DNA from: Candidatus Bathyarchaeota archaeon
Lineage (GTDB): Archaea; Thermoproteota; Bathyarchaeia; TCS64
Assembly: GCA_937877765.1 (NCBI GenBank)
Contig: CALGBN010000360.1
Span: 1 to 10,732 of the forward strand
DNA: 10,732 nt
Direction of reading: 5' to 3'
Shown piece by piece: positions 1 through 6,801 of this stretch (within the stretch, counting starts at the first letter, position 1; each line of letters starts with the position of its first letter). The notes beneath the pieces were generated by a model that did not search any database, was not told the DNA's origin, and worked only from the letters and a program-made list of their open reading frames with translations. Made by a program: the position numbers and the translations under genes.

Positions 1-2276
1 CTGTTTATGTTGTATATATTCAGCCTTTCCGCGCCTATACCCAGTACATCCAATGTTTTCTTCAGATAAGCCACTCTTTCCTCAGCTTTCTTACTTCCGT
101 CAATATAGTGACACTGGTCCTCTGGACAGGCGAAGATCACGACACCATCTGCGCCCTGATCAAATGCCTTCATCAAGTGAAGTGCATCTAATCTTCCACT
201 GCATGGCACTTTGAGCACCCTAATGTTCTCGGGAACACTCATGCCCAACTGTCCGGCTATCTCAGCCGCGTAACCAGCTGCGCCTTCACAGGCAAACGCT
301 ACGATAACAGGCTCATCCCTGTCTTCTAGCCACTTAGTGGGCTTCAATAAGCCCTCAATGGCTGGTAGTACTTGTTCGTCTCTGAATAGTCTCAACTGCA
401 TTGCAGCTACTGGACATGTCGCTGCGCAGATTCCACAACCTGTACATGCTTCTACATTTACTATGGGTAATCCGAAGTCGCTCCATGTTATTGCCTCGAA
501 TGGACAGGCTGATGCACATGCACCACAGCCCACACAGACATCCTCGTCTACTATTGCCTTTGTTAGCTCTACCTCGATCTCTTTCTTGTTGAGGATGCTT
601 GAGGCTTTGTTTGTAGCGAATAGTACCTCGTTGAGAGCGTGCTGTATGTCCATTGGTCCTTGGCATGCTCCACAGATGTATACGCCGTTGATGTTTGTCT
701 CTACTGGGCTCAGCTTGGGGTGCTTCTCGTTCAAGAAACCGTCAAGGCTCAGATCTAAACCGATTGCTTTGGCTAGCTCCTCGTTGCCCTTGGAGGGTTC
801 CATGCCGTTGCTGAGAACCACCATGTCTACTGGTAGCTGGACGTCCTTGTTGTCCTCGTCCTTGTAGTGGAACACCAAGCCGTTGGATGTCTCTGATACA
901 TCTTCAGCTTCTCCACGGATCAGCTTTACTCCTCGTTCCTGTGCCTCGTAGTAGAAGCGTTCATAGTCCTTGCCATTGAGCCTGATATCCTTGTGAAGTA
1001 TTGTGATGTCGATGTCTGGCCACCGTTTCTTGATATCCAGAGCGTGCTTCACAGCGATTCCACAGCATATCCTGCTACAGTACTCGTGGATACGTGGCTC
1101 TCGGCTACCAACACACTGAACCATAACCAGTTTCTCGGGTTTCTCACCGTCGCTAATCTTTCTAATGGTTCCAGCGGTAGGTCCACTCATATCAAGAAGC
1201 CTTGCGAGTTCAAGCTGTGTGATAACGTCACGGTTTTCCCCATACATGTAGTTGCCCGTTGGGTCGTACATCTCGAATCCTGTGGCAACGATTACTGTGC
1301 CGACTTTGAGGGTTTCCTCTTTGGGCTTCATATTTAGCTCTATGGCGTCTACTGGGCATGCCTTGGCTAGGTCTTCAGCGTTTTCACAGTGTTCACGATC
1401 CATGTATGGGATTCTTGGTAGGCTCTGATTGTTTGGGATGTAGACTGCTTTTCTCATGCTGAGTCCCATATCGAACTCGTTGGGTGTCTCTCCCTCACAT
1501 AATTCCATGCATTTTCCGCAGCCTATGCATTTCTCTGGGTTGATGTATCTTGGCTGTGTCTCGATGATGGCTCTGAAGTTGCCTACTACTCCTACGAGTC
1601 GTTTCAACTCGCTTAATGTGTGAACATGTACGTTGGGTTCCTTGGTTACTGGGCTCCTGTACATGCAGCGTCGGTGAAGTTCACCCTCGAATGGCATGAT
1701 ACAGTTTCCACAATCCATGGATGGGAAGCAGGTACCGAGTTGTGGTGTTTTACCGCCCATAAATGGCTGTTTCTCGACTATGTGCACATCATAACCCATG
1801 TCAGCTAGCCTTGTGGCTGCCTCCATGCCTACTAGTCCACCACCGATAACCAGTGCTGATTGCTCGACAGGTATCTTCTGTACCTTGATCTCTTCTAGGC
1901 TTGTGACGCGATTTACCGCAGCCCTTAGGAGTATCTTTGATTTCTCAGCGATTAGCTCGTTTTCTGTTTCTGCGCTGCATAGCTCGCTGATGTCAACTAC
2001 CTCGATTAGGTATTTGTTGATGCCAACGTCAATTGCTGCGTGTTTGTATGCTTCCTTGAAGATTCTTGGGCGGCATGAGGCGAAAACGACTCTATCTACA
2101 TTATTGGTAGTGATCCACATTTTGAAGTTCTCTAGGTCTTTGTCTGTTGGACCGTAGTATCCTGAGTCTACCGCTACTACGTTTGGAAGTGTCTCGGCGT
2201 ATACTGCTAGTCCGCCGATTTTTGCTCCTGTGTCGGGGCTTGTTCCCCATGGGCTGATTATTACTCCTACCTTCAT
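1..2276 (-). CDS. hdrA: HdrA-like flavoprotein fused to an MvhD domain, partial (3' end off window)
   Basis: Cytoplasmic iron-sulfur flavoprotein related to heterodisulfide reductase subunit A. The frame is open for 758 codons from ATG 2276 to the window edge, so probably only the last few dozen residues are missing. The start is 2 nt after the upstream stop, with GAGGAGGC 6 nt before it. Visible parts: an HdrA N-terminal domain (about 1-125); an FAD Rossmann motif IGGGLVG (144-150); an inserted ferredoxin region with CIGCGKCMELC (250-260) and a degenerate second half (C297, C307); the HdrA signature CVGSR plus YCSRICC (388-405); two C-terminal [4Fe-4S] motifs (CVGCGACASAC 581-591, CTGCGICAATC 611-621); and an MvhD-like domain from about 656 (C663, C692, C717, C722). 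Oddities: the usual N-terminal CxCG and the Cys near 40 are absent (ISPWGT, GYYGP), the fourth MvhD position is Ala666 instead of Cys, and the GPKDIP-type flavin loop reads GPMDIQ (540-545). QmoB or another HdrA paralogue are alternative family labels. Confidence 0.9.
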   Translation of the reverse strand, partial: MKVGVIISPWGTSPDTGAKIGGLAVYAETLPNVVAVDSGYYGPTDKDLENFKMWITTNNVDRVVFASCRPRIFKEAYKHAAIDVGINKYLIEVVDISELCSAETENELIAEKSKILLRAAVNRVTSLEEIKVQKIPVEQSALVIGGGLVGMEAATRLADMGYDVHIVEKQPFMGGKTPQLGTCFPSMDCGNCIMPFEGELHRRCMYRSPVTKEPNVHVHTLSELKRLVGVVGNFRAIIETQPRYINPEKCIGCGKCMELCEGETPNEFDMGLSMRKAVYIPNNQSLPRIPYMDREHCENAEDLAKACPVDAIELNMKPKEETLKVGTVIVATGFEMYDPTGNYMYGENRDVITQLELARLLDMSGPTAGTIRKISDGEKPEKLVMVQCVGSREPRIHEYCSRICCGIAVKHALDIKKRWPDIDITILHKDIRLNGKDYERFYYEAQERGVKLIRGEAEDVSETSNGLVFHYKDEDNKDVQLPVDMVVLSNGMEPSKGNEELAKAIGLDLSLDGFLNEKHPKLSPVETNINGVYICGACQGPMDIQHALNEVLFATNKASSILNKKEIEVELTKAIVDEDVCVGCGACASACPFEAITWSDFGLPIVNVEACTGCGICAATCPVAAMQLRLFRDEQVLPAIEGLLKPTKWLEDRDEPVIVAFACEGAAGYAAEIAGQLGMSVPENIRVLKVPCSGRLDALHLMKAFDQGADGVVIFACPEDQCHYIDGSKKAEERVAYLKKTLDVLGIGAERLNIYNIN

Positions 2277-2278
2277 CG

Positions 2279-4534
2279 TTATGCCTCCTCCACCTTTTTC
2301 ATCAATTCACCTAACTCCGTGGTGAATTGGCTTACCATCGTACCACTGGACTCTAGCACCTTGATTGGTGTGTGTATTTTCGCTGTCTTGAAGAAGTCAG
2401 CGATGATCTCCATTTGTCCCTTGACACGCTTGTCTCCCTTCAGGAAGTGACAGCGCTCTTTTACACATCCTACCAGCATGACACCGTCTGCACCTTTCTT
2501 GACGCCGTTTAAGACGTTTCTGAGACTCAGATTGCTCATGCAGTTTACATAGACCGGTACAAAGCTACTGCTGTATGTGGATTTTGTGAATCCAGCCGTG
2601 TCCATCAGGTTGTAGCCACAGTCATCACAGATGAAGCCAAGTACGATTGGTTTGTCCTGTTTCTCGGATAATATTGCTTCTACTTGTGCATCGATTACAT
2701 CATAGCCAAAGCTTGGTGTGTTTAATGCTCTTGTTGGACAACTGCTTACACAGAGTCCACAGCTTTGACATAGTAGTGGGTCAAACTCTGGGAAGCCGTC
2801 TTCTGGGATTGTGATTGCCTCGTATGGGCAGACGCTTCTACAGATTCCACACTTTCCACAGTTATCCTCATTCACTACTGGGTGGTTCACCTTCTTCTCA
2901 AGGTGTGTCCGCATATAGTTAGCTCCCATAAAAGCAGCCGCACCTGCCTGTGCTATGCTGTCTGGGATGTTCTTGGGTCCAGTAGCAGTTCCAGCTATGA
3001 ATACGCCGGGTGCTCTTGTGGTGATGTTTGCTACCTTCTCGTCTATCTCCTTGTAGAACCCTGAGTCGGTTAGCTCGACATTGAATAACTCTGCTAGTTC
3101 CTCTGAGCCTTTGCTTGGCTTCATTCCTGTACTGAGCACAAGCATGTCTGCGTCTAGTGTCTTGGTTCTCCCCATTCCGTCAGTGTAGGTGATGCCTAGT
3201 CCATCACCCTGTGGAGAAACATTATCGATGTCTCCATGAATGAAGTTGACGCCCATTTCCTTGGTGTCATTGTAAAGTGACTCGAAACCATATCCGCTTG
3301 CCCTGATATCCCTGTATAGTACAGTAATCTCGGCTGATGGATCACGCTGACTCTTAATCACGCCAGCATGCTTTATCGCCGCCATACAACAATACTTGCT
3401 ACAATATGACTGATACTCTTGGTCTCGGCTTCCGACACACTGAACCATCACGATTTTCTTTGGTGCCTTAGCGTCACTCGGACGAGCTACGATTCCACCT
3501 GTTGGTCCGAATGGGTCAAGTAGTCTTGCTAGCTGGTACTGGGTGATTACGTTGTTCAATCCGTAGCCCCACTTGGGGATACCGCTGGGATCAAAGTCCT
3601 CAAAACCAGTTGCTAGTACAACGGAGCCTACCTCGATGGTCTTTTCTCCAGCTTCTTCCATGATGTTCATCAATGCTGCGGGGTAGACGCTTGTACAGTT
3701 TCCACATTTGCTGTTTACAACATGCTTTAACTGTGCCTTTGTAGGTCCATCACTGTATACTAAATCATATTTTCCGGATGCGTTGGGAATAATCTCTACT
3801 GGTTGTCCCTTACCTTTCTTAGCTGATAGGTCAAGTTCTACTGGTTTCTTTGAGTATGTTACCTTGAATCCAGTTGGGTTTCGTTCTACTTCTTTTACTG
3901 TGCTGCTTACATGGTACTCGATGCCGGGTTTTGTGAGTAACTCGATCATTCTTGGACCACGTAGACACATTGTACAGTCCTCTTCTGGGTAGGTCTTGCT
4001 GATTAGTGACATTGCACCGCCGATAGCTGGGCTTCTCTCGATTACATGAACCTTGAAGCCTTGATCAGCTAGCTCTGATGCCGCTGTAAGCCCAGCTACA
4101 CCTCCTCCGACAACGAGTGCTTCATTAGATCGCTCGTAGGTCATGGTTTCTAGTGGCTGTGCCGCCTTGACCTTGGCTACAGCTGCCTTCAACAGCATCT
4201 TGGCTTTCTGGGTCGCCTCTGATTTGTCGAGATGAACATACGCGATCTGCTCTTTGGCGTTCACCAAGGCATAGTTATCCTCGGGTAATCCAGCCGTTTT
4301 CATGGCGATCTCGATGGGTTTACTGCAAACGCTTCTCGTACAGGCGAATACAACTAGTCTTTCCGCGCCTTTCATCGCCTTTACCAGTGCATCCTTGTCA
4401 CCTGTGGTGCAGAGAGCCTTCATTGTGATTGTTTCTTTTACACCCTCAAGGGTATGCACATATGCAGAAAGTGCCTTGTAATCTATTTTATCGTTCAATG
4501 CGTCGCCGCATGTACAGAAAATTACCTTAGTCAT
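2279..4534 (-). CDS. hdrA: HdrA-like flavoprotein fused to an MvhD domain
   Basis: Second, complete HdrA-MvhD fusion (751 aa; HdrA alone is usually about 650, so the extra length is the C-terminal domain). In HdrA complexes this subunit carries FAD and can split electron pairs; a fused MvhD domain would receive them from the hydrogenase. Visible parts: N-terminal domain with CTCG (7-10), C42, C65 and C70; FAD motif VGGGVAG (142-148); DCTMC (186-190); CVGSR plus YCSKYCC (366-383); the flavin loop GPKNIPDSIAQ (519-529), close to the family norm; two ferredoxin motifs (CGKCGICRSVC 559-569, CQSCGLCVSSC 589-599); and an MvhD domain with CDDC (636-639), C665, C690 and C695. The inserted ferredoxin domain is reduced to CGNCTSVYP (277-285), with Tyr where a Cys is expected. 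ATG follows the mvhA stop codon with no gap, and GGGAGG lies 8 nt upstream. It is the copy more likely to keep a working flavin site. Confidence 0.93.
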   Translation of the reverse strand: MTKVIFCTCGDALNDKIDYKALSAYVHTLEGVKETITMKALCTTGDKDALVKAMKGAERLVVFACTRSVCSKPIEIAMKTAGLPEDNYALVNAKEQIAYVHLDKSEATQKAKMLLKAAVAKVKAAQPLETMTYERSNEALVVGGGVAGLTAASELADQGFKVHVIERSPAIGGAMSLISKTYPEEDCTMCLRGPRMIELLTKPGIEYHVSSTVKEVERNPTGFKVTYSKKPVELDLSAKKGKGQPVEIIPNASGKYDLVYSDGPTKAQLKHVVNSKCGNCTSVYPAALMNIMEEAGEKTIEVGSVVLATGFEDFDPSGIPKWGYGLNNVITQYQLARLLDPFGPTGGIVARPSDAKAPKKIVMVQCVGSRDQEYQSYCSKYCCMAAIKHAGVIKSQRDPSAEITVLYRDIRASGYGFESLYNDTKEMGVNFIHGDIDNVSPQGDGLGITYTDGMGRTKTLDADMLVLSTGMKPSKGSEELAELFNVELTDSGFYKEIDEKVANITTRAPGVFIAGTATGPKNIPDSIAQAGAAAFMGANYMRTHLEKKVNHPVVNEDNCGKCGICRSVCPYEAITIPEDGFPEFDPLLCQSCGLCVSSCPTRALNTPSFGYDVIDAQVEAILSEKQDKPIVLGFICDDCGYNLMDTAGFTKSTYSSSFVPVYVNCMSNLSLRNVLNGVKKGADGVMLVGCVKERCHFLKGDKRVKGQMEIIADFFKTAKIHTPIKVLESSGTMVSQFTTELGELMKKVEEA

Positions 4535-5935
4535 CTAAGAAACCTCCCTTACCTCGACCATTTTACCATCCACTTTCAGGTCAAAATCAACCATATGGAC
4601 ACTGCAGCTTGTGCATGGGTCATAGGCTCTTACTATTTTTTCCAGTCTCCAGCATGCTTCTGCTCGCTTCTTTTTGTCAGCGAACTCTGAGGCGTATATC
4701 TTGGCGTTTGCGTACAGGTCATGTTGTATTAAGGGGTGGTTGTAGGTTGTCGGTGCCATGATGTTAGCGTATCTGATCAAACCATTATCGTCGATTACAT
4801 AATGGTGTGTCAATACACCTCTTGGAGCCTCTATAAATGATGCTCCTTCTCCACCTCTACTCTTTACAGGCTTCCTTATGTCTGTGGAGGTAATCTGTGG
4901 GTCTTCCAGCATCTGGAGTACTTCCTCCTGTCCTGCGATTAGCTCGGGGATTCTTGCAAGGTTGAAGCCTTGTACCTGTAAGCAGGGTCTTGGGAATAGT
5001 TTGAGGTATCTTTCCTCGTATTCATGTGCTACAGGCCATGGTAGCTTGCTTGCTACGTTGAGTCTGGCTAGTGGTCCTACTCTGAGGTTTCCGTTTACCC
5101 CCTCGGGTTTATAGTAGGGTACCTTTGTGCTGCTGTGCTCCCAAACAGCCTCTTGAATATAATTGTAATAGTAGTTGGTGTCAAATTTGACGACCTCTTT
5201 TCCTGTACCTGAGATGATGCGCCCCTTGCCATCATATACATCATAGTGGTCGTCTGGTCCATTGACCAAACCCATAAAGTTTGTCTCTAGGTCTGGGAAC
5301 TGGCTGCAAACCAGTGAGTCTTTCTCGTAGACATCGAACACGAAATCGGCGTAGACCTTCATAAGCTCCAATACTTCTTTTCCTTCTTCCAGAAGCTCTC
5401 TTCTACGCTCCTCCTTCAAAGCGAGAGTCTGTCCTCCGGGTACTGATGTGACTACTTGGACGATTCTTCCACCCGATGCTTCAACCACCTTGTTACCATA
5501 GGCATGAATCTTCAACGCCGCCTTTCCGATCTCAGGGTACTTGCCCATCAATGCGATGAAGTTGCGTCCATCCTCTGGTAATCCAATAAGGTCTGGTACC
5601 GCTAGGAAGGCGCTGTGGAGGCTATGGCTTGTGACGTAGCCTCCTGCGTTCATCAAGCGTCTGAGTTTGATGGCTGTTTCTGTGGGGGTTACACCCCATG
5701 CGTTTTCGATGGCTTTGACTGATGCGAGGTGGTGGCTTACGTAGCATATGCCACAGATTCTCTGGGTGAGTCTTGGTGCTTCTTCTGCTCTTTTTCCTGT
5801 TAGTAGGTATTCGAAGAAGCGGGGGGCGACTGTGATCTGGAATTTCAGGTCTTTTAGTTCATTGTTTTCTACTTCTACCTTGATCTTGCCCATTCCCTCG
5901 ATTCTTGTTAGTGGGTCTATCTCTACTTTGGTCAC
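4535..5935 (-). CDS. mvhA: [NiFe] hydrogenase large subunit, MvhA-like (group 3c type)
   Basis: Catalytic subunit that would hold the NiFe(CN)2CO site and interconvert H2 with protons and electrons in the cytoplasm. The four metal-binding Cys are present: RICGIC (C61, C64) and DPCTSC (C441, C444), with His447 as the expected processing site and a 19-residue C-terminal tail after it that a maturation endopeptidase would remove. RIEG (11-14) and the context EEAPR-x3-RICGIC resemble methanogen MvhA, as does the coupling to hdrA genes. At 466 aa the length fits the family. The start is GTG, overlapping the small-subunit stop (GTGA), with AGGAGG 8 nt upstream. Oddities: RIEGM replaces the common RIEGH, and RFFE (39-42) replaces the RGxE signature, although Glu42 of that proton-transfer motif is kept with the usual spacing to the Cys pair. 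No maturation genes are in view. Confidence 0.95.
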   Translation of the reverse strand: MTKVEIDPLTRIEGMGKIKVEVENNELKDLKFQITVAPRFFEYLLTGKRAEEAPRLTQRICGICYVSHHLASVKAIENAWGVTPTETAIKLRRLMNAGGYVTSHSLHSAFLAVPDLIGLPEDGRNFIALMGKYPEIGKAALKIHAYGNKVVEASGGRIVQVVTSVPGGQTLALKEERRRELLEEGKEVLELMKVYADFVFDVYEKDSLVCSQFPDLETNFMGLVNGPDDHYDVYDGKGRIISGTGKEVVKFDTNYYYNYIQEAVWEHSSTKVPYYKPEGVNGNLRVGPLARLNVASKLPWPVAHEYEERYLKLFPRPCLQVQGFNLARIPELIAGQEEVLQMLEDPQITSTDIRKPVKSRGGEGASFIEAPRGVLTHHYVIDDNGLIRYANIMAPTTYNHPLIQHDLYANAKIYASEFADKKKRAEACWRLEKIVRAYDPCTSCSVHMVDFDLKVDGKMVEVREVS

Positions 5936-6801
5936 TTGTTTCGCCTCCTAGCTATCTCGCTGAGAATAGACTCAGCGTATGTGAATCTGTATAATTGGCC
6001 AACATATGTCTCGACGCTGAACTCATCTTTTAGCTGGTTCAGTAACCCGGTCATGGCGTCAATCATCGCCATACCTTGATCAGTTACATCTAGACATGCT
6101 CCACGGCAACCCTCACAAGTGTTTCCACTCGTGGGGCAGGGTGCTCCGCAGCCACCCATAGTGGCTGGGCCCATACAGAAGAAGCCTTGCTCAAGTAGGC
6201 ATCTGTCTGGGTCTGGTATCTCCTCGTGTATTCGTTTGAGCTCTGGCTCATATACGCCGAGTCTTTCCTTTGGGCAGTCATCACATACCTGCGTCGAGTT
6301 GTACTTCGGTATCTCTCCGCTCAGCAAGGTTGTTAATGTGTATGCGATGTCTGTTACCTCTGGTGGGCAACCGGGTATGATGAAATCTACCTTCACAAAG
6401 TCCTTGATAGGATGCTGCTCATCTAGTGAAACAAGGTGAGTTGGAATAGTACCCTTATCAGTTCCTCTCCAGTTATTGTAGATAGTGTTCATAAGCTCGG
6501 GACCAGGTTTGAGGTTCGCGAGCCCGGGGATACCTCCGAAGGCGGCGCATGCGCCTAGCGCGATAACGACGCCTGATTTTTCACGTATCTCCTTTATGAT
6601 TTCCTCTTCGTGGGTATTTCTGATCCCGCCCTCTACGATAGCTACGTCAATTTTATCTGGTATCTCCTTAGCATCGATAAGAGTAGGTGCATAGATGAGC
6701 TCGTTTGCTGCAAGCACCTCTACTAGCGTCTCGTGGAGCCCTACGGCGGCTACTTGGCATCCGCTGTCTCCTGCGAGCCCTATTAGTAATATTCTGGCCA
6801 T
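5932..6801 (-). CDS. mvhG: [NiFe] hydrogenase small subunit, MvhG-like, with Asp at a proximal-cluster ligand position
   Basis: Electron-transfer subunit of 289 aa pairing with the MvhA-like subunit encoded next. It should carry three iron-sulfur clusters. The proximal cluster region is DSGC (12-15), GACAAFGG (84-90 area, C85) and PGCPPE (C145). The next cluster has CDDC (173-176), C201 and C209. The last has C218, C222, C229 and C232, with an additional C236. The motif CLLEQGFFCMGPAT is typical of MvhG/FrhG. In nearly all small subunits the first motif is CxGC; here codon GAC gives Asp12. No signal peptide is present, so the enzyme is cytoplasmic. It is the first gene of the operon, overlapping mvhA by 4 nt, with 189 bp of non-coding DNA upstream. 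The Shine-Dalgarno match is weak (AGGGCAG). The family assignment is firm; how the cluster is bound is inferred. Confidence 0.94.
   Translation of the reverse strand: MARILLIGLAGDSGCQVAAVGLHETLVEVLAANELIYAPTLIDAKEIPDKIDVAIVEGGIRNTHEEEIIKEIREKSGVVIALGACAAFGGIPGLANLKPGPELMNTIYNNWRGTDKGTIPTHLVSLDEQHPIKDFVKVDFIIPGCPPEVTDIAYTLTTLLSGEIPKYNSTQVCDDCPKERLGVYEPELKRIHEEIPDPDRCLLEQGFFCMGPATMGGCGAPCPTSGNTCEGCRGACLDVTDQGMAMIDAMTGLLNQLKDEFSVETYVGQLYRFTYAESILSEIARRRNK
5944..5949 (-). promoter_or_regulatory. Ribosome binding site for the mvhA-like gene
   Basis: On the minus strand the bases read AGGAGG, 8 nt before GTG at 5935-5933. The site lies inside the last codons of the small-subunit gene. It supports GTG as the true start of the large subunit, since the next residues TKVEIDPLTRIEG are the family N-terminus. 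Confidence 0.75.

Follow-up and report, generated by a model that had tools for sequence, protein, structure and literature searches.

A group 3c-like, HdrA-linked [NiFe] hydrogenase of Bathyarchaeia with aspartate recurrently exchanged for the first proximal-cluster cysteine

In the small subunit of a group 3c-like [NiFe] hydrogenase from an uncultured archaeon, we observe an aspartate (Asp12) in place of the first cysteine of the proximal iron–sulfur cluster, where almost every distant relative has cysteine, at a position that has switched repeatedly between cysteine and aspartate within this archaeal lineage. We consider it probable that the proximal cluster of this HdrA-linked enzyme is of a 3Cys-1Asp kind, exchanged recurrently and serving to tune electron transfer. 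The gene lies in the window, by which we mean the whole 10,732-nucleotide stretch of DNA analysed, a single contig of a fragmented source genome (G000; 573 contigs) whose close relatives, where named, are mostly Candidatus Bathyarchaeota. The features discussed below are as follows.

5932..6801, minus strand: MvhG/VhuG-like [NiFe]-hydrogenase small subunit, 289 aa (open reading frame and profile matches)
6766..6768, minus strand: Asp12 codon GAC, in place of the first proximal-cluster cysteine (sequence; alignment columns)
6757..6759, minus strand: Cys15, second residue of the DxGC pair (sequence; alignment columns)
6547..6549, minus strand: Cys85, third expected proximal ligand (alignment columns)
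6367..6369, minus strand: Cys145, fourth expected proximal ligand (alignment columns)
6106..6285, minus strand: region containing the eight expected medial- and distal-cluster cysteines (alignment to MvhG of 5odc; column counts)
4535..5935, minus strand: MvhA/VhuA-like [NiFe] large subunit, 466 aa (RICGIC and DPCxxCxxH motifs; alignment to 5odc_F)
2279..4534, minus strand: H1, HdrA-like flavoprotein with a C-terminal MvhD (FlpD) domain, 751 aa (profiles; alignment to 8rvu_a)
3..2276, minus strand: H2, second HdrA-like flavoprotein with an FlpD domain, 758 aa visible before the gene leaves the window (profiles; alignment to 8rvu_a)

Residues 12–15 of the small subunit read Asp-Ser-Gly-Cys (DSGC). 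The other two proximal positions, C85 and C145, are intact, as are C173, C176, C201, C209, C218, C222, C229 and C232, which match cysteines of the solved MvhG (5odc) in the alignment. This agrees with a preliminary description of the DNA, which had also placed the GAC codon, correctly, two changes away from TGC or TGT. In sequence and in predicted fold, which resembles that of MvhG in a model alignment, the protein falls with the Mvh/Vhu-type small subunits of group 3c. The four-cysteine proximal set typical of this group (CxGC...C...C), which is not used as its definition, is broken by DSGC. The O2-tolerant [4Fe-3S] proximal cluster of the MBH type relies on an extra cysteine within the CxxC motif; residues 13 and 14 are here serine and glycine.

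The gene neighborhood likewise points to group 3c, as MvhA, MvhD and HdrA are all encoded alongside (MvhA at 4535–5935; two HdrA–FlpD fusions at 3–4534). The large subunit matches the VhuA profile with 335 bits, below the 800-bit cut-off, and H1 and H2 match HdrA2 with 552 and 698 bits, below the 1100-bit cut-off, and FlpD with 76 and 111 bits. Sequence and operon thus uphold the earlier view of an MvhG-like, Hdr-linked archaeal enzyme with aspartate at a proximal-ligand position. Within the window, no HdrB or HdrC gene was recognized and no gene for methylene-pterin reductase (MetVF) is in view. The closest known systems include MvhG of 5odc and the VhuG-type relatives 9sfi and 9sw2. In the MvhAGD-HdrABC complex of Methanothermococcus thermolithotrophicus (5odc), the proximal motif is CSGC rather than DSGC. 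MvhD is a separate protein in the methanogen complex, which contains a single HdrA, whereas in the window operon it is fused as a domain to each of two HdrA proteins.

In electron-bifurcating HdrA, a lysine (K409) and a glutamate (E356) are reported near the FAD (PMC12054007). The lysine is kept in both H1 and H2, and the E356 position, which we assigned by its 53-residue spacing from the lysine, is alanine in both. Across the loci with Asp12 (H1 and H2 of the window and the HdrA pairs of L144, L150, L151, L156, L157, L039 and L170), 10 of 11 distinct HdrA proteins have alanine at the E356 position and the K409 position stays lysine, in a tally that covers motif-search matches only and misses other HdrA proteins. 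The sole glutamate among the 11 belongs to H1 of L039/L169. Judged from these sequences, alanine at the E356 position would count against a simple bifurcation story. The C-terminal MvhD domain of H2 reads FACEGAAGYAA, and its relatives in L150 and L151 read FACQWCSYAAA; H2 thus lacks one CxxC cysteine, probably a [2Fe-2S] ligand.

Asp12 is widespread among relatives of the window enzyme. Residue 12 is aspartate in 94 of the 104 closest matches, cysteine in 3 and absent from 7 that are truncated at the N terminus. In an alignment of the window protein with its best 120 protein matches (121 rows), 96 rows have aspartate, 16 have cysteine and 9 have a gap owing to truncation. Of 18 motif matches in the loci L001–L121 (duplicates included), 14 carry the codon GAC and 4 carry GAT. 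The preliminary description had allowed for a sequencing error at this codon, or for close homologues all having CxGC; because 94 of the 104 close matches also have aspartate, we reject the former, and the latter fails on the same count. Three close relatives have Cys12, and farther relatives have either residue. We then assembled 404 rows (the best 120 matches of each protein search plus open reading frames of the loci), a partly redundant set that one genome may enter both as a protein match and as a locus. Here, residue 12 is cysteine in 250, aspartate in 139 and a gap in 15, with no third residue. Residue 15 is cysteine in all 389 rows that contain it, and a single row deviates at the other two proximal positions, with alanine at 145.

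That only cysteine or aspartate occurs at position 12 supports ligation, since drift should have brought in further residues had the site been vacated; the pattern fits a real ligand rather than an empty position. On this evidence, Asp12 likely ligates iron, and the proximal [4Fe-4S] cluster would be held by C15, C85 and C145 together with Asp12. A bound aspartate has a precedent among archaeal group 3 enzymes in FrhG of Methanothermobacter marburgensis (3zfs, 4ci0, 4omf), for which a 3Cys-1Asp proximal cluster with density for Asp60 is reported (PMC3930138). The structures with a natural aspartate that we compared have it at the second cysteine, however, and do not prove ligation from the first. 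Asp12 might alternatively bind no iron, in which case the site would carry a [3Fe-4S] cluster or a [4Fe-4S] cluster with an open site. Such a site is conceivable, because a [3Fe-4S] cluster can result when PsaC is artificially substituted and the Asp-bound iron of Pyrococcus ferredoxin is aerobically labile; yet in PsaC a stable [4Fe-4S] cluster, lower in potential, was obtained with one Cys-to-Asp change (all reported in PMC4070099). Given that FrhG Asp60 does ligate (PMC3930138), that the remaining ligands are retained and that the Cys/Asp dichotomy is strict over 389 scored rows, we think an unligated Asp12 rather improbable.

The position of the aspartate within the CxGC pair separates the window enzyme from those of known structure. 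The HofK small subunit of Ralstonia eutropha belongs to a group 1 type enzyme, the actinobacterial-type hydrogenase, and its proximal cluster is coordinated by three cysteines and one aspartate. HofK (5aa5) resembles the window enzyme in having its aspartate inside the CxGC pair, but reads C32-D-G-D35; aligned with the NiFeSe hydrogenase (GLGCDGDSVS versus GQGCTGCSVS), Asp35 takes the second-cysteine position. The FrhG of M. marburgensis reads HLSGCTGDAMSL, in which Asp60 likewise replaces the second cysteine (GCTGD in the alignment); it differs further from the window enzyme in its ferredoxin-type C-terminal domain and its F420 partner. The window protein thus stands outside the FrhG/HofK pattern, with aspartate first and cysteine second. 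The preliminary description had seen the same change as in R. eutropha. An aspartate does lie in the CxGC pair of that enzyme, but the comparison is inexact (CxGD there, DxGC here), and identity of the two changes is rejected on position; the archaeal precedent of FrhG had been overlooked. The hofK gene itself (L209 14963–16018, Cupriavidus necator pHG1) is annotated in the plasmid record as 'hydrogenase expression protein HypE', and its product matches 5aa5_A over all 351 residues.

Aspartate occurs at the first cysteine in none of the 12 distinct solved small subunits that we aligned. A search for FrhG elsewhere gave 7 matches in 6 of 13 genomes (methanogens and other archaea, reached through the loci), all CxGC and hence no further Asp case; M. 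barkeri FrhG (6qgr) is also CxGC in the alignment. A natural aspartate at position 1 is listed, from sequence only, for M. barkeri YP_305362 (Table 1 of PMC4070099). Among the matches listed from the open-licence literature, no title or abstract opening names an Asp-ligated group 3c hydrogenase; within the same literature, we found no paper on MvhG together with the proximal cluster and no structure, spectrum or redox data for DxGC enzymes.

The likeness to HofK had also raised the idea that Asp12 is an adaptation for oxygen tolerance, as in the actinobacterial-type enzyme. Apart from the 3Cys-1Asp coordination of HofK, we find no support for it. FrhG with aspartate is found in strict anaerobes, and COX1 has no match in any of 21 genomes (that of the window and 20 relatives), compared with 8 of 14 control genomes. 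Because the HofK aspartate occupies the other cysteine of the pair, and because Asp-ligated iron in Pyrococcus ferredoxin is reported to be aerobically labile (PMC4070099), oxygen tolerance from Asp12 is unlikely, and as an explanation of the substitution we hold it to be very improbable indeed.

To place the exchange in an evolutionary context, we built a tree with the motif left out (alignment columns 9–18 excluded). Dropping short rows and rows without residue 12 left 388, from which 161 representatives were drawn; the tree holds 96 of these, comprising all 49 with aspartate and 47 of 112 with cysteine, namely those nearest to the window together with 12 that are outgroups or distant (the 65 omitted are all Cys). 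The clade that contains the window has 34 rows, of which 31 are Asp and 3 are Cys (support 100/100), and is enclosed by a wider clade of 68 rows (49 Asp and 19 Cys; support 100/100). Mapping residue 12 onto the tree, a check proposed in the preliminary description, shows aspartate and cysteine intermingled, with six unpolarized changes between them on the best tree once an apparently chimeric record, P0108, is excluded. The minimum is seven on the full set including P0108, and six are forced by the starred branches alone. A single clade of Asp rows is rejected (AU p 4e-86, P0108 excluded). The earlier suggestion of convergent tuning was thus a fair one. Two Cys rows, P0068 (also representing P0092) and P0080, are nested among Asp rows and have otherwise clade-typical motifs. 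The P0108 record appears to join an N terminus unlike that of the clade to a window-clade body, perhaps as an assembly artefact.

These exchanges may be nearly neutral, with aspartate and cysteine about equally good ligands that drift without functional consequence. Consistent with this, no small-subunit column other than position 12 follows the Asp/Cys state closely: mutual information with the state is 0.84 bits at position 12 and 0.58 bits at the next, position 259. Apart from C12, only the residues at 20, 28 and 60 are shared by the three nested Cys proteins and uncommon among their Asp relatives, each being present in 7–20% of these. Moreover, a hydrogenase carrying an engineered aspartate at the equivalent position, the C78D variant of Alteromonas macleodii HynSL, is reported to be active (PMC4070099). 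On the other hand, every exchange requires two base changes and passes through glycine or tyrosine intermediates, neither of which appears in the 404 rows, and aspartate is held by 31 of 34 representatives of the window clade. We regard neutral drift as a possible but tentative account.

Whether the ligand follows the redox partner can be judged from 25 genomes with loci, 24 of which are represented in the 68-row clade by a member or a close relative; the remaining one, G557, was fetched after the tree was made and placed by similarity. Fifteen of these are Asp genomes, 14 of them scorable (the contig of G023 is cut inside mvhA). An H1-type gene adjoins the hydrogenase in all 14, lying after it or, in G052, G450 and G557, before it. 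The HdrA pair or its visible start is beside the hydrogenase in 13 of the 14. Both H1 and H2 are seen in nine (G000, G001, G005, G008, G026, G033, G052, G450 and G557), some of these loci being cut by a contig end, and in four the contig ends within H1 (G003, G004, G013 and G019). The other genome, G002, has an H1 homologue without the flavin domain and no adjacent H2, and the best HdrA found elsewhere in it shares 35% identity with H2. This homologue (L152 5658–6773, 372 aa) keeps the N terminus, ferredoxin and FlpD parts and has no FAD-domain match in Pfam.

The 10 Cys genomes of the 68-row clade that were scored comprise four of a MetV/MetF type and six from Asgard archaea. In the former (G032, G038, G050 and G058), MetV and MetF lie beside the hydrogenase and no HdrA is found there. 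In G032 and G038 (98 and 100% complete), nothing anywhere in the genome matches H2 at E 1e-20; in G050 and G058, HdrA genes do occur, on contigs other than that of the hydrogenase. The Asgard genomes (G818–G823) have the H1-H2-FlpD arrangement with cysteine, the contig of G818 starting inside H1. A search of 227 genomes gave 15 that match, of which these are the six closest, and two of the remaining nine that were fetched also have cysteine. Outside the 25-genome score lie a G040 fragment without an N terminus and an Asp-type fragment where a G058 contig ends. The latter (L142 9913–10368) is a second small subunit (GLMADSGCHIAL) on the same contig as the Cys-type copy.

From this distribution, a partner-matched switch can be proposed, in which aspartate is favored with a heterodimeric HdrA pair and cysteine returns once the pair is lost and electrons pass straight to MetVF. 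The near-constant HdrA pair of the Asp genomes, the four Cys genomes with adjoining MetV/MetF and no HdrA there, and the lack of any H2 match in G032 and G038 all favor it, as does the placement of the G032/G038 lineage (row P0245) among Asp rows, although P0245 has a long branch, tree support around it is weak and independent events are few. The six Asgard genomes keep the HdrA pair with cysteine, so the pair does not require aspartate and the association of ligand and partner is only loose; we reject a strict rule by which aspartate means the HdrA pair and cysteine means MetVF. A Cys enzyme outside the clade (L210) has two HdrA genes, MetVF also occurs in three Asp loci (G052, G450 and G557), and G002 retains aspartate despite its H1 homologue without the FAD domain and its missing adjacent H2. 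Partner matching of the ligand is therefore possible but weakly supported, and as a full explanation we rate it as tentatively as neutral drift. More doubtful still is its extension to a reversible natural Cys/Asp switch that accompanies re-wiring between the HdrA pair and MetVF and would reset the cluster for coupled or uncoupled delivery.

Part of the clade seems tied to hydrogen-linked methylene-pterin reduction. L146 and L147 (G032 and G038) are MetV-MetF-MvhG-MvhA clusters in near-complete genomes, and as read from gene content, each could possibly encode a direct H2-dependent methylene-pterin reductase. In L142 and L143 (G058 and G050), MetV and MetF are fused (543–547 aa) beside a ferredoxin protein with an FlpD domain and a Cys-type hydrogenase; on reading of the translations, L143 also has putative acetyl-CoA synthase subunit genes. 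An Hdr-type MTHFR has been proposed for acetogens (PMC9430772) and is comparable to the MetVF-linked part of the clade.

Returning to the tuned 3Cys-1Asp cluster that we favor, the switch at position 12 would most likely act on the cluster that comes first after the NiFe site, altering its potential and its electron/proton coupling, and we infer that selection keeps Asp12 for this redox effect. By analogy with engineered and natural carboxylate ligands, such tuning is plausible. The A. macleodii residue C78 is equivalent to the first cysteine, so that C78D, like the window enzyme, has aspartate there, but in a laboratory mutant of another group with an already engineered background; of the substitutes Asp, His, Asn and Gln, that source counts C78 among the positions that tolerate Asp alone or none at all (PMC4070099). 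The electron-bifurcating NfnSL also has a carboxylate (Glu/Asp) cluster ligand, in another enzyme whose cluster adjoins the bifurcating flavin rather than a NiFe site (PMC9503767). Changing this glutamate ligand of its proximal cluster to cysteine (E126C) is reported to alter the half-reactions and electron distribution and to leave activity in full reactions normal (PMC9503767), so exchanging a ligand may be without effect on full turnover.

The lineage-wide aspartate at the first position of a group 3c-like hydrogenase is a novel variation on the known 3Cys-1Asp theme. The Asp-ligated proximal clusters that we could trace to a structure have their aspartate at the second cysteine, and the window lineage provides a natural aspartate at the first. 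What group 3c hydrogenases do in Bathyarchaeia was called unclear in a paper of 2022 (PMC9534799), and the finding is relevant to that question. Related archaea have swapped cysteine and aspartate back and forth several times, providing a natural test of the role of the ligand, and because the residues are exchanged among relatives, one-residue comparisons of D12 and C12 are possible in similar enzymes.
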